Notes under the pieces: model-generated
Databases searched by the model: none
Seen by the model: the letters and a program-made list of their open reading frames with translations, nothing else
What the model was told of the DNA's origin: nothing
DNA from: Deltaproteobacteria bacterium
GTDB lineage: Bacteria; Myxococcota; Myxococcia; Myxococcales; 40CM-4-68-19
Direction: 5' to 3'
DNA length: 46,321 nt
Assembly (NCBI GenBank): GCA_005879805.1
Contig: VBKL01000104.1
Span: 1-46,321, forward strand
Position numbers and translations under genes: made by a program
In this document: one piece after another, positions 18,887 to 45,055 of the stretch
Numbering within the stretch: position 1 is the first letter of the stretch
How the letters are laid out: every line of letters begins with the position of its first letter

Positions 18887-18922
18887 GAAGGGGAGGCGGT
18901 ACCCGAGACCCGCCTCCCCTTC
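18887..18922 (+). terminator. Strong hairpin after the TonB receptor
   Basis: GAAGGGGAGGCGG (18887-18899) and CCGCCTCCCCTTC (18910-18922) form a perfect 13-bp stem with a 10-base loop, 36 bp after the stop codon. There is no T-tract; many high-GC bacteria use such hairpins. Confidence 0.65.
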
Positions 18923-39694: not shown

Positions 39695-40228
39695 TCAGCG
39701 TCCGTGGAGGCGGAGCTCAAGGATCGCTGTGCGATCGGCGGAATACCGGACGCGCGCGGCGCGAAACGGGGAGCCGTCGGAGAGCGGCAACGGCGGACCG
39801 GATTCGACGGTGGATGGCACGGCGGTCTGCGGTTCGGAGATGGGCGCGTGGATCCGGGACAGCGTCACGCGGACCCGCGCATTCCCCTGCACCCCGAAGA
39901 ACGAATGCGGCGCCGGGAGCGCATATTGGCGATGGCCCGCGAGCGTCCCCTGGTAGAGCTGTTCCCACGATCCGTCGGCCGCCTGCGCCTCGACCCGCGC
40001 GCGCGCGTCGGTCTCCGGCGTGAGCGTGAGCTGGAAGCGATCGATCGGCTCTGCCTGGCCGCGCAGGAGATCGACGCCCTCCCACGATCCGTCGGGGCGC
40101 TCGCGCTCGCCCATCGCCGCCAGCGAGAAACGGACGTGCGCTGCGGGGGCCGGCCGCACGGCAACGAGCGCGACGGCGGCGGAAGCGGCAACGGACTGCG
40201 CCGCGCGCAGAAGCGGATGGCGAATCAT
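39695..40228 (-). CDS. Exported protein of unknown function, VIT/VWA operon gene 4
   Basis: A 177-residue protein with an N-terminal signal (LLRAAQSVAASAAVALVAVRPAPAAH). The body (VDLLRGQAEPIDRFQLTLTPETDARARVEAQAADGSWEQLYQG) faintly resembles DUF4384-type domains, which follow a LxxGDxFxLxLxxxxxxY pattern, but I do not claim the family. It overlaps the previous gene by four bases (ATGA) and ends the operon. Confidence 0.6.
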   Translation of the reverse strand: MIRHPLLRAAQSVAASAAVALVAVRPAPAAHVRFSLAAMGERERPDGSWEGVDLLRGQAEPIDRFQLTLTPETDARARVEAQAADGSWEQLYQGTLAGHRQYALPAPHSFFGVQGNARVRVTLSRIHAPISEPQTAVPSTVESGPPLPLSDGSPFRAARVRYSADRTAILELRLHGR

Positions 40229-40797
40229 GATTGCAGCTCCCTCGAGAGCGCCGACGTCCGGTCTTCGAGAGCGCGCAGCCCCAGGGCTGGATCGATCGCC
40301 GCGGGCAGCGGCTGCGTGGAAGCGATGAGCCGCGCGCGCAACTCGCGCAGCGAGAGCGTGAGGCCGGCGATCTCGTGCCACGACTTCGTGCGCTGTGCCT
40401 CGAGGAGGATTCGACCTTCCCCGGGCGGTGCCTCCGCGAGCGCGGCATCGGTTCGCAGAAGGACCCGCTGGGCCTCGAGCGCGCGGGCGGCGGCATTGAT
40501 CAGATCGCGGCGTGCGCTGGGAAAGAAGTCGCGGAAGTGGCCGATGTCCCTGTCGAGGGTCCGCAGCGCCGCGTCGGCAGCCGCCAGCGCCTCCCACGGC
40601 GCGTCGCGGGTGGCGACTCGCAACCCGAGGCGGTCGAGCCGCGGGCACCGGACCGCAAGCCGCACCTCTCCACTGCAAAAGAGCGCGATCGCGCCTGCGC
40701 CCGCCGCGGTCCAGAGCAGGACCCGCGGCGCGCCACCGGCCCAGGCGCCGGCGACGAAGAGAACGATCTCGATCGAAACCCGGTAGGCGAGCCTCAT
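40225..40797 (-). CDS. Membrane protein of unknown function, VIT/VWA operon gene 3
   Basis: A 190-residue protein. The N-terminus has two hydrophobic helices (IEIVLFVAGAWAG and VLLWTAAGAGAIALF), followed by an Arg/Ala/Leu-rich, largely helical cytoplasmic region with heptad-like spacing (RRDLINAAARALEAQRVLLRTDAALAE). Its start codon overlaps the stop of the preceding gene. No family recognised. Confidence 0.6.
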   Translation of the reverse strand: MRLAYRVSIEIVLFVAGAWAGGAPRVLLWTAAGAGAIALFCSGEVRLAVRCPRLDRLGLRVATRDAPWEALAAADAALRTLDRDIGHFRDFFPSARRDLINAAARALEAQRVLLRTDAALAEAPPGEGRILLEAQRTKSWHEIAGLTLSLRELRARLIASTQPLPAAIDPALGLRALEDRTSALSRELQS

Positions 40798-41503
40798 CGC
40801 ATCACCAGGGCTTCGGAGACATCCACTCGAACGGCCGCGTTGCGCGTACCGACCCAGAGTCCGCCGCGAGACGATGCGGCGAGGGCCGTGACCGGGGCCA
40901 ATTCGCGGACGAGCTTCGACCGCCCGTCGCGAAGGACGACGAGCCCGCTCGGCGTCCCGACGAACACCGTGCCGCCATGGACGAGCAGCGCGTGCGGCGA
41001 ATGCCCTGCCCGGGTCCGAGCGTTTGGAAGTCCGCGCCTTCGACGATCGAGATCCCATGGCGCGATGCAAAGGCGGCGCGTCCGTTCCAGATCGTCACAG
41101 CGGTGAAGGCGCCGGAAGACAGCCTGTGCCCTTCCGCAAAGGCGCCTCCGTTGGTCGCGGCATAGACGGTGCCGTCGTCGGCCACGGCGAGATCGTTCAC
41201 GCGCGCATCGATCGCGAGCGCCACGAGCTTGCCGTTCTCGATGCGAAACGCGCCTCGATCGAAGGTGCCCGCATACAGCGCATCACCATGCGAGGCGAGC
41301 GCCACGACGTCGCCCGGAAGCTCGATCCGCTCCAGCACCTGCGCCGTCATCGGCTCGGCGGGATCCGTGGGACGATGCGTCTCCTGCGCGCGCAGGACTG
41401 GCAGCGGAAAGCGCTGCGCCCGCTCCAGCCACTGCGAGGGCGTCCCGTGGGTCTGCAGCCAGGCGAACGCACATCCGATGCACACCGCGGCGAGCTTCTT
41501 CAC
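40794..41503 (-). pseudogene. Periplasmic beta-propeller-like protein, single frameshift; VIT/VWA operon gene 2
   Basis: The GTG at 41503 overlaps the VIT/VWA stop and starts a signal-anchor (KKLAAVCIGCAFAWLQ). The body repeats a propeller-blade pattern: VVALASHGDALYAGTFDRGAFRI, VNDLAVADDGTVYAATNGGAF, FTAVTIWNGRAAFASRHGISI. At about 40993, after TLGPGQGI, the blade pattern moves to another frame (HALLVHGGTVFVGTPSGLVVL, ALAASSRGGLWVGTRNAAV) that ends at a TGA overlapping the next gene's ATG. That overlap matches the rest of the operon, so a one-base indel or sequencing error is more likely than an old pseudogene. Confidence 0.7.
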
Positions 41504-43791
41504 GGCACGACCTCGACCGCGATCTCGCGGTGCGAGCTGTTCCCCGCGAAGTCCTGGGCCACGAGCTCGATCGGATAGCGGCCCGGAACGAGCGTCTTGC
41601 CCGTTTCGATCAGCGCCGAGAAACCGTGGCCGTCGAGCGGCACGTCGATCTCCCGCCCGTCCCACAGCCGCGCCGTCACCCGGCGCACGTCGAAGAGCGA
41701 CTTGAGCGCCTCGGCGCGATCGTCGCGAGTGGTCAGCGCGCGCCACAGGTCGCCCGGCGTGAGCGTGGCGATGGCGTGCAGACGCAGCATCTCTCCCGCG
41801 CGCACCGGGTCTGCCCAGACGACCATCTCGGGCGCGTGCGTGTCGATGGAAATGGTGAGCGGCGTTTCCGAGACGCGCCCATCGCGAGCAGTGATCTCCA
41901 CGCGAATGGGATAGCTGCCGTCGGGCGTCTCCGCCGGCACGAGGAAGCGCGCGCTGAACGCCTGCTGCTCGTCGTCCCAGCGAGCTTCTAGGGGCTCGCC
42001 GCCGAACGGGAGCTTCACGCGGACCCTCCGCGAATCGCGCGCCGCGCGGACCATCACGATCGGATCGCCCGGCCGCACGCGCGCGGGAAACACCTGCGCG
42101 AGCCGCGGGTCCCTGGGCTTCACCGCGACGAGAGAAGTGTACGGCGTCACGATCTGGTAACGCATCGAGAGGGCGACGATCTCGTCCTTCGCCTCGCTCC
42201 GCTCGCCCTGCAGCCGGTTCTGCGCCAGGAGGTAATCGATACGCTTCTGCGCCCACAGCCGGGCGACGAACGGGCTCTCCTCGTCCTTCGCCGGGAACTG
42301 CGCCATGAATGGGATGCGGATCTTCCGCCCGTTGAGCGTGCCCACCAGCGCGGCCTGGGCCCTGCCCGCGCCGCGATAGCGGCCGACCAGCACGAGCTGG
42401 GATCCCTTGTACAGATCGGGCAGCACGTCGGGGTACTGCATCGCCACGGTGATCGAATCGCCGAAGTCGAGCGAGAGATCGCTGAGCACCGGCTTCGCGA
42501 TCTTCGCGTAGAACCCGCCGACGACGGTGTCGATGTTCCCCCCTTCGGGGACGAATCCGGACCCGCCGCGGTTCTCGCTGCCCAGCTTCTCGAGGAAGGT
42601 GCGGTTCACGTCGCTGCCCACGCCGAAGGCGAAGAGGCGCGCGTGCCCCTGGTTGAGATCGCGAAAGCGCCGCGCGATCTGCACCGGATCGCGCACGCCG
42701 GTCGAGGGAATCCCGTCGGTCATGAAGACGATCACGCGCGGGCGATCGCCTTCCGCCGTCATCGCCAGCGCGTACTGCAGCGCGGTGTCGATGTCGGTGC
42801 CGCCCCCCGCGCGGAGCGCATCCGCGAAGCGCATCGCCTCCCGCACGTTCTGCGCGCTCGCGGGCCGGAACTGGTTGGAGAAGGGATCGAGCGAGTCGCT
42901 GAAGGCGATCACCGCGAAGCGATCCTCGGGGTTCAGATTCGAGAGGCAGCGCTTGAGCGCATCGCGCGCCTGGTCGATCTTGCGCGCGTCCCCCATCGAG
43001 CCGCTGGTGTCGAAGACGAAGAGGACGTCCTTGTGGACGATGTCCTGCGCGCCCGTCAGCTCCTGGGGCGAGGCGAGCAAGAGGAAGTAGCCGCTCTCTT
43101 CGCCCTCCGGCTTGAAGGGCACGAAGGAGAGACCGAGCCGCGATGACTCCGTCCGGTAGGTGAGCAACAGTTCCTCGTCGGGCTGCGCATTCTTCGCTTC
43201 GAAGGTGAGGACGAACCCCGTGGCGGTCTGCTCGATCTTCGCCTGCTGCCTGGATGCGAGCTTCACCTCGGCGATGCGCTTCTGGTCCTCGCACTCGACG
43301 CGGATCCGCATCACGCCGATCGCGTCAGCGGTCCTCTGCAGCGGAACGCGCAGCGTGACGAGGCCGCCATCGTACGGAAGGATCTGCGCCCACGAAGCTT
43401 CGACCCGCTTCGTGCCACCCGCTGGAATTCCGTCGACCCGCATCCGGAACTGGCGTGCATCGCTCTGTTGCAGCATCGCCGGCTGCTGGTGACGCTGCTT
43501 CGCTTTGTCGTAGGTCTCTTCGGCCTTCTTCTTCTCCTCGATGCGCGAGGCCACACGCTGTCCATCGACCCACGTCGCGAAGTCCGAGACCGCCGCGCCG
43601 TCGGGCAACTGCAGCACGTAGTTGGCTTCCAGCGGGCGGGCGGTGGTGTTTTCGAAGACCTCGTCGAGCGTGGAGCGAGCGACCTGATCCTTGATGCGGA
43701 TCTGCAGGTCCTGCTGGCGGATGAGGAGCGGCTTCTGGCCGCTCTCGAGGGGGACGAGAATGCCGGCGATCAGAGCGAGGGGCGCAAACAT
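41500..43791 (-). CDS. VIT and von Willebrand A domain protein
   Basis: A 763-residue envelope protein like the heavy chain of inter-alpha-trypsin inhibitors. After a hydrophobic N-terminus, the VIT domain (DQVARSTLDEVFENTTARPLEANYVLQLPDGAAVSDF, about residues 25-150) is followed by a VWA domain with an intact MIDAS: FVFDTSGSM, then GGGTDIDTAL and FMTDGIP. A second beta region and a C-terminal Ig-like domain (HAPEMVVWADPVRAGEMLRL) complete it. VIT/VWA proteins bind ligands through a divalent metal. It starts a four-gene operon in which each gene overlaps the next by a few bases. Translation may be controlled by the hairpin at 43796-43820. Confidence 0.88.
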   Translation of the reverse strand: MFAPLALIAGILVPLESGQKPLLIRQQDLQIRIKDQVARSTLDEVFENTTARPLEANYVLQLPDGAAVSDFATWVDGQRVASRIEEKKKAEETYDKAKQRHQQPAMLQQSDARQFRMRVDGIPAGGTKRVEASWAQILPYDGGLVTLRVPLQRTADAIGVMRIRVECEDQKRIAEVKLASRQQAKIEQTATGFVLTFEAKNAQPDEELLLTYRTESSRLGLSFVPFKPEGEESGYFLLLASPQELTGAQDIVHKDVLFVFDTSGSMGDARKIDQARDALKRCLSNLNPEDRFAVIAFSDSLDPFSNQFRPASAQNVREAMRFADALRAGGGTDIDTALQYALAMTAEGDRPRVIVFMTDGIPSTGVRDPVQIARRFRDLNQGHARLFAFGVGSDVNRTFLEKLGSENRGGSGFVPEGGNIDTVVGGFYAKIAKPVLSDLSLDFGDSITVAMQYPDVLPDLYKGSQLVLVGRYRGAGRAQAALVGTLNGRKIRIPFMAQFPAKDEESPFVARLWAQKRIDYLLAQNRLQGERSEAKDEIVALSMRYQIVTPYTSLVAVKPRDPRLAQVFPARVRPGDPIVMVRAARDSRRVRVKLPFGGEPLEARWDDEQQAFSARFLVPAETPDGSYPIRVEITARDGRVSETPLTISIDTHAPEMVVWADPVRAGEMLRLHAIATLTPGDLWRALTTRDDRAEALKSLFDVRRVTARLWDGREIDVPLDGHGFSALIETGKTLVPGRYPIELVAQDFAGNSSHREIAVEVVP

Positions 43792-43795
43792 GTGG

Positions 43796-43820
43796 GGCCT
43801 CCGGAAGATTGCCGGAGGCC
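43796..43820 (-). promoter_or_regulatory. RBS-sequestering hairpin in the VIT/VWA leader
   Basis: On the mRNA the 5' arm GGCCTCCGG pairs perfectly with CCGGAGGCC around the seven-base loop CAATCTT. The 3' arm contains the GGAGG Shine-Dalgarno, six bases before the ATG at 43791. Folded, it would hide the ribosome-binding site. Confidence 0.65.
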
Positions 43821-43874
43821 AGTGCAAGCCACGCGCCTTGATGCGTTCGTCTGGGGCCGCAGGGGCGGCGCTTC

Positions 43875-43890
43875 GCGATCTATAGATCGC
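43875..43890. promoter_or_regulatory. 16-bp perfect palindrome in the divergent VIT/kinase region
   Basis: GCGATCTATAGATCGC reads the same on both strands. It lies midway between the VIT/VWA start and the divergent histidine kinase start (84 and 65 bp away), a natural place for an operator of a dimeric regulator. Confidence 0.5.
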
Positions 43891-43954
43891 AGAACCCCCC
43901 CGTGGTTTATTGCCCGAGCAGCGCGGGAACCACACCTCGATCGGGAGCGGCAGC

Positions 43955-45055
43955 ATGGGTGACCACCTCAGCGCGACCGAGTACCGCCTCCTCGTCGAGC
44001 ATTCACCGGTCATGATCTGGCGGGCGGCGCTCAACGCGGAGTGCGACTACTTCAACGACACCTGGCTCCAGTTCACCGGCCGCCCGCTCGCCAAGGAGAT
44101 GGGCAACGGTTGGGCCGAGGGCGTGCACCCCGAAGATCTCGATCGCTGCGTGAAGCACTACCTCGATCATTTCGCGCGGCGCGAGGCGTTCGAGATGGAG
44201 TATCGGCTCCGCCGCCACGACGGCGTATACCGCTGGATCTTCGATCGCGGCACGCCCTTCTACGACGACGCCGGCAACTTCGCGGGCTTCATCGGCAGCT
44301 GCGTCGACGTCGACAATCGCCGCCGCGCGCAGTCAGACCGCGAACGCAAGGGCGAGCAGCAGCTCGCCTCGGCTCGCGATTTCGAAAAATGGATCGTCGC
44401 CATCGTCAGCCACGACATCCGGAACCCCTTGAACGCGATCGCTGGTTCCGCGTCCACGCTGCTCGAGATGACGGACGTCCCAGCCGTGAAACGCGCCGGG
44501 GAGCGCGTCCTTCGCGGGGCCGAGCGGATCCAGGAAATCGTCGCCGACCTGCTCGACCTTTCGCGCGAGCGGCAGGGCAGCGGCGTTCCGGTTGCGCGGG
44601 CACGCACCGATCTACGGAGCATCTGCCGCCAGGTCCTCGACGAATTCGACGCGGCGGCCAAGGACCGCGCGCTGGAGCTGCGCTGCGAGGGGGAAGCGGT
44701 CGGCGATTGGGACCCGCACCGTCTCGCGCAAGCGATCTCGAATCTGGTCGGCAATGCCATCGAGCACAGTCCGCCTGGCTCTCCGATCCAGGTGAAGATC
44801 GACGCCCGCGAAAACACCGTCGTCGCCGAGGTGCATAACGAAGGGCACATTCCGCCGGAAGTGCTGCCGGAGATCTTCCAACCCTTCAAGTCCGGCGGAG
44901 AACGGATCGGACGCAGCCAGGGTCTGGGGCTCGGGCTCTTCATCGCGCAGGCGATCGCGAAGGCGCACAGGGGACACATCGAGGTCGCTTCGACCGCCGA
45001 GACCGGCACGAGCTTCCGGCTCGAGCTGCCGAGAAACAGCGCCGGGCCGACGTGA
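43955..45055 (+). CDS. PAS-domain histidine kinase (soluble)
   Basis: A 366-residue cytosolic sensor kinase without membrane segments. A PAS/PAC domain (EHSPVMIWRAALNAECDYFNDTWLQFTGR to FAGFIGSCVDVDNRRRA, about residues 10-130) is followed by a HisKA domain with His 153 in VSHDIRNPLNAI. The HATPase_c domain has NLVGNAIEHSPPG (N box) and GLGLGLFIAQAIAKAH (G2 box). The ATG at 43955 has GGGAG upstream and starts the PAS; an in-frame ATG-less extension exists but adds nothing. No response regulator is adjacent, so it is an orphan in this window. Confidence 0.88.
   Translation: MGDHLSATEYRLLVEHSPVMIWRAALNAECDYFNDTWLQFTGRPLAKEMGNGWAEGVHPEDLDRCVKHYLDHFARREAFEMEYRLRRHDGVYRWIFDRGTPFYDDAGNFAGFIGSCVDVDNRRRAQSDRERKGEQQLASARDFEKWIVAIVSHDIRNPLNAIAGSASTLLEMTDVPAVKRAGERVLRGAERIQEIVADLLDLSRERQGSGVPVARARTDLRSICRQVLDEFDAAAKDRALELRCEGEAVGDWDPHRLAQAISNLVGNAIEHSPPGSPIQVKIDARENTVVAEVHNEGHIPPEVLPEIFQPFKSGGERIGRSQGLGLGLFIAQAIAKAHRGHIEVASTAETGTSFRLELPRNSAGPT

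Follow-up and report, generated by a model that had tools for sequence, protein, structure and literature searches.

A paired ribosome-binding site ahead of a VIT/VWA operon in a member of the Myxococcales, and a candidate sigma-54-type start that may leave it open

When the ribosome-binding site of a gene lies inside a stable hairpin, the question arises of whether translation is locked, and on which transcripts. A site of this kind precedes a gene for a VIT/VWA domain protein in the window analysed here, a stretch of 46,321 nt from a Deltaproteobacteria bacterium of the order Myxococcales (contig VBKL01000104.1). On the minus strand, positions 43820-43796 read GGCCUCCGG-N7-CCGGAGGCC, which gives nine uninterrupted base pairs around a loop of 7 nt. 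Within this inverted repeat, the 5' arm GGCCTCCGG occupies positions 43812-43820, the loop CAATCTT positions 43805-43811, and the 3' arm positions 43796-43804; this last arm contains the Shine-Dalgarno (SD) sequence GGAGG (43802-43798), and a spacer of 6 nt separates it from a candidate ATG start codon at 43791-43789. The isolated hairpin has a folding energy of -18.8 kcal/mol, and the folding places the SD in a stable local stem, as is characteristic of hairpins that lock translation at the ribosome-binding site. A sequence-only reading of this region had described a GGAGG six bases from the ATG, paired in a perfect 9-bp stem with a seven-base loop, and both the sequence and the folding bear this out.

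The gene behind the hairpin (41500-43791, minus strand) encodes a protein with Pfam VIT and VWA domains over the cut-off; its score against the nearest NCBIfam equivalog, TIGR03788, is 291 bits, below the cut-off of 552. Three further minus-strand genes follow it closely: gene 2 (40802-41503), gene 3 (40225-40821) and gene 4 (39695-40228). Gene 2 is frameshifted near 41.0 kb, where the match to the G032 orthologue passes from frame -3 to frame -2, and the frameshift may reflect either an assembly error or decay. Relatives of gene 3 are present at three of the five orthologue loci examined for neighbours, and relatives of gene 4 at four of the five, some of these loci being short. The four coupled genes postulated from the sequence do form a real operon, with relatives of genes 3 and 4 standing beside orthologues as well, except that gene 2 is frameshifted. 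A divergent gene encoding a PAS histidine kinase lies upstream of the VIT/VWA gene, and no relative of this kinase was found at any of the four orthologue loci examined for it.

The frequency of such a structure was evaluated at several levels. The window contains five perfect stems that are 9 bp or longer and enclose a loop of 3-10 nt, against 4.3 expected (the mean of 20 first-order Markov copies of the window), so that the stem by itself is unremarkable in DNA of 68% GC. The longest of the five listed lies at 18887-18922 and has 13 perfect pairs and a loop of 10 nt. A codon-score caller of our own, which is not a standard one, called 386 genes in 446 kb of this genome, and these yielded 55 candidate starts preceded by GGAGG at 4-9 nt; the cost of opening the SD at the present site, 15.1 kcal/mol, ranks first among the 55 (median 5.1, next 14.0), and the top values grade continuously (15.1, 14.0, 12.9, 12.8). 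Random leaders were generated with the GGAGG and the ATG kept in place; of 6000 such leaders, 0.1% attain the same cost of 15.1 kcal/mol, and in 0.05% the GGAGG is covered by a stem of 9 bp or more. These values, 0.0005-0.001 per site, are uncorrected probabilities, because the site was picked post hoc as an extreme from the whole window. When up to two mismatches are allowed, the core of the hairpin is matched 109 times per strand in the genome and its reversed control 67 times, while the exact core is found only here; a repeat family or a REP element is ruled out by this single exact copy. No Rfam family came near its gathering score at the hairpin.

Conservation was examined in orthologues of the VIT/VWA gene, of which five were found at 1e-130 or better among 195 genomes of the phylum, with 45-60% identity; three loci from a contig scan match, by contig coordinates or match position, orthologue genomes that were also found in the genome search. 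The distribution of the gene is patchy, since the same search detected no orthologue in the 11 further genomes of the family to which the window belongs, and this suggests loss, transfer or a mis-binned contig. The hairpin is absent from the leaders of all five orthologues. One of them (L070) was excluded from the folding and from the leader alignment on account of its unclear start; in the other four (L004, L005, L068 and L069) opening the SD costs 1.5 to 6.7 kcal/mol from the predicted starts. In the alignment of the window with these four, 70% of the cells at the nine pairs of the window are paired, a value matched by 133 of 500 shuffles, and a double change is present at one of the nine; no covariation above the shuffles was detected with these five sequences, a number that gives low power. 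Conserved upstream dyads with arms of at least 7 were also not found in the four orthologues. Compensatory changes in the leaders of relatives had been proposed as one check on this hairpin; that check returned no signal over the shuffles, and the expected conservation of pairing does not hold, either in the five leaders or in the pair count made on four of them. The hairpin is real and rare for a ribosome-binding site, and it is not conserved.

These results bear on two explanations in which the RNA hairpin has no function. According to the first, the repeat is incidental, with no role at the RNA or DNA level wherever transcription starts. Stems of this size at chance frequency, the continuum of opening costs and the lack of conservation agree with it, whereas the low probability per GGAGG site does not, and we consider this explanation improbable. 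The second, that the 25-bp inverted repeat is a DNA operator bound by a protein, draws on the presence of a perfect 9-bp dyad near a candidate transcription start; it is opposed by the single exact occurrence of the core with its spacing in the genome, by the distance of 16 bp between the half-site centres and by the failure to see the dyad in the orthologue leaders, and its probability is very low.

The leaders of the relatives do carry another element. In the four orthologues the sequence TGGCAC-N6-TGC(T/A), a sigma-54-type promoter, is present 64-74 nt upstream of the start and agrees with the consensus at 10 of 12 positions, a level reached by none of 26 distant relatives; L070 has a 10/12 match as well, too close to the start to be interpreted. 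These sites suggest that the VIT/VWA operon may be expressed in an activator-dependent manner. For Myxococcus xanthus, the list of sigma-54 sites in PMC9765219 gives the consensus TGGCACG-N4-TTGC(T/A) together with degenerate sites, among them the putative site GGGCGCG-N4-TTGCA at MXAN2511. Judged by this same -24/-12 consensus, the window has two candidates, weak and predicted only, in each of which GG and GC are placed ten bases apart with consensus bases around them. The proximal candidate, AGGCGCGTGGCTTGCA (43823-43838, minus strand), matches 10 of 12 positions and has a predicted RNA start near 43812; the distal candidate, TGGTTCCCGCGCTGCT (43917-43932, minus strand), matches 8 of 12, with a predicted start near 43906.

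A match of 10/12 is expected 0.003 times per random 110 nt, and six of the 365 upstream regions sampled from the genome, the window's own counted in, reach at least 10 within 110 nt. A weight matrix built from 12 published sites and the four orthologue sites gives the proximal candidate a moderate score of 8.1, which 5.8% of random 180-mers and 22 of 364 other upstream regions also attain, and gives the distal one a similar score, 7.8 (0.074 per random 180-mer, against 0.058 for the proximal candidate); the matrix of the four orthologues alone favours the distal candidate, 9.6 versus 2.9. Of the 53 exact-consensus sites collected in 60 relatives, 52 end in TTGCT and not in TTGCA, and the pattern RGGCGCG-N4-TTGCA is not enriched in the genome (two matches versus five for the reversed pattern). 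RpoN is encoded in the genome. A consensus scan of positions 43600-44100 found neither a sigma-70 promoter nor an intrinsic terminator. The divergent intergenic region also contains a 16-bp perfect palindrome, GCGATCTATAGATCGC (43875-43890), at -78 to -63 of the proximal candidate start; the window has four perfect palindromes of this length.

The two candidates give opposite answers as to whether both arms of the hairpin are included in the mRNA. Opening the SD costs 3.5 kcal/mol when the RNA starts at 43812, about 7 when it starts at 43813-43816, and 13.4 when it starts at 43820; the fate of the lock idea consequently hangs on a few bases of the RNA 5' end. The reading that we favour, tentatively and at less than an even chance, is that the operon is read from the proximal sigma-54-type promoter into an mRNA that begins around 43812 and has an open ribosome-binding site. 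A promoter with its -12 element at 43825-43824 would drive the VIT/VWA operon, and the operon's own mRNA would begin near the last base of the 5' arm of the hairpin, with a 21-nt leader and an accessible GGAGG ahead of the ATG at 43791. The inverted repeat would then be no lock on the operon's own message, and would close the ribosome-binding site only when transcription enters from further upstream; this closing could be a passive start-site gate or an accident. We counted in favour of the proximal start the promoters of the four orthologues, the 10/12 match, RpoN, the MXAN2511 site, the opening cost of 3.5 kcal/mol and the GGAGG-ATG pair; against it, the matrix scores, the preference for TTGCT, the lack of enrichment and the short N-terminus that results from the ATG. 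While the repeat and the promoters of the four orthologues can be read directly in the sequence, for the window we infer the promoter, the RNA start site and the gate.

The position of the start codon offers a different explanation. Of 199 called ATG starts, 21 have a GGAGG 4-9 nt ahead of them, compared with 10 of 1594 internal ATG codons, and this enrichment favours the ATG at 43791 as the start. Translation could, in an unlikely alternative, begin 12 codons (36 nt) upstream at an in-frame TTG (43825-43827, minus strand), which would yield a 21-residue signal peptide; the hairpin would then fall early within the coding region, where the initiating ribosome would unfold it, and the GGAGG would be incidental. 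In the four orthologues, 20-21 residues precede the mature G(I/V)(L/I) motif, and the TTG gives exactly 21, whereas the ATG product keeps only nine residues before GILVP. The TTG N-terminus has an RR pair ahead of the hydrophobic stretch and the ATG N-terminus is without positive charge; in addition, an AAGG is found 8 nt upstream of the TTG. On the other side, the 12 codons between the TTG and the ATG score -3.0 in the codon model, against +2.8 for the first 12 from the ATG, and chance alone would place a GGAGG ahead of 0.6% of internal ATG codons. The TTG start and the proximal promoter are mutually exclusive, given that the promoter's -12 element contains the TTG and the GG of its -24 element overlaps the AAGG upstream of that codon.

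The explanation originally proposed was a lock on the ribosome-binding site: the mRNA would come from upstream, the ATG at 43791 would be the start, and the hairpin would close the site until it is opened. The claim that the folded site is closed holds if the mRNA has both arms, since opening the SD then costs 13-16 kcal/mol, and it fails for the candidate start that lies inside the stem. The rarity of such a cover over an SD (0.05-0.1% of random leaders) also speaks for the lock, and the distal promoter candidate, with its start near 43906, would transcribe both arms and keep the hairpin. Against it stand the orthologues that lack the hairpin, a covariation that did not exceed the shuffles in a comparison of low power, and the absence of any opener or known RNA family (Rfam) in our searches. 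A perfect GC-rich 9-bp stem is not expected to melt in the physiological range, unlike RNA thermometers. The ROSE-type thermometers likewise have their ribosome-binding site paired in a leader hairpin (PMC3669281). In the coat gene of MS2 the SD is also placed in a local hairpin, whose stability sets translation; that hairpin, at -7.9 kcal/mol, melts readily, in contrast to the -18.8 kcal/mol obtained here by folding, and in the tabulated MS2 series a hairpin of -12.85 kcal/mol already brings expression down to 0.001 (PMC9894550). Judged by this series, a stem as stable as the present one would nearly abolish initiation. If both arms are transcribed, the stem would be beyond the range in which MS2 still expresses, which makes passive regulators unlikely and would call for an active opener or another start codon. 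Among the agents invoked in the sequence-only reading (an RNA-binding protein, a small RNA, an upstream ribosome or temperature), temperature and a passive small RNA fit poorly with such stability, and the opener would most plausibly be a ribosome or helicase arriving from upstream. A regulatory lock finds no support in the comparison with relatives; its interpretation is weak, and we hold it doubtful. Ranked by probabilities that are our own judgements and not computed values, the proximal start with an open ribosome-binding site comes first, followed by the TTG start, the lock, the accident and the DNA operator.

Returning to the proximal start, the closing of read-through transcripts has precedents in phage T4. 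For the genes e, soc, 49 and I-TevI, a hairpin sequesters the ribosome-binding site only on the longer transcripts, as is proposed here, and for gene e and I-TevI the cited accounts describe that the RNA from the proximal promoter lacks the 5' part of the hairpin and is translated (PMC3014915, PMC2988022). The T4 cases involve phage late promoters and, for several of them, mapped 5' ends, whereas here the locus belongs to a bacterial chromosome, the sigma-54 start is predicted and the upstream transcripts are hypothetical. In a chromosomal start-site gate of this type, the inverted repeat would straddle the sigma-54 start, only activator-driven transcripts would have an open ribosome-binding site, and read-through would be locked; we give this a small probability. 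When real upstream sequence is added, the SD of the window closes, at a cost of 12.8-16.2 kcal/mol (0/150 null sequences at each length). With 30-100 nt of upstream sequence, the orthologues L068 (0-2/150 null) and L069 (2-7/150) close as well, and the other two, L004 and L005, remain open. Strong sigma-54 sites from 34 loci of relatives were examined in the same respect, and nine were retained once repeated sites and those lacking a start codon and SD within range had been dropped; the closing effect was seen at one of the nine and was absent at eight, so that gating was not observed as a common trait of sigma-54 promoters. A gate may exist at this locus without being general. A limited literature search gave no match for a bacterial sigma-54 gate, which does not establish its absence from print.

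If the gate does not exist, the lesson of this locus is that a hairpin over a ribosome-binding site means little until both the 5' end of the transcript and the start codon have been established. If it does, translation of the VIT/VWA operon would depend on which promoter made the mRNA, and a mechanism described in phage T4 would be extended to activator-dependent transcription in bacteria, where it would provide a second guard against leaky expression of sigma-54 operons.
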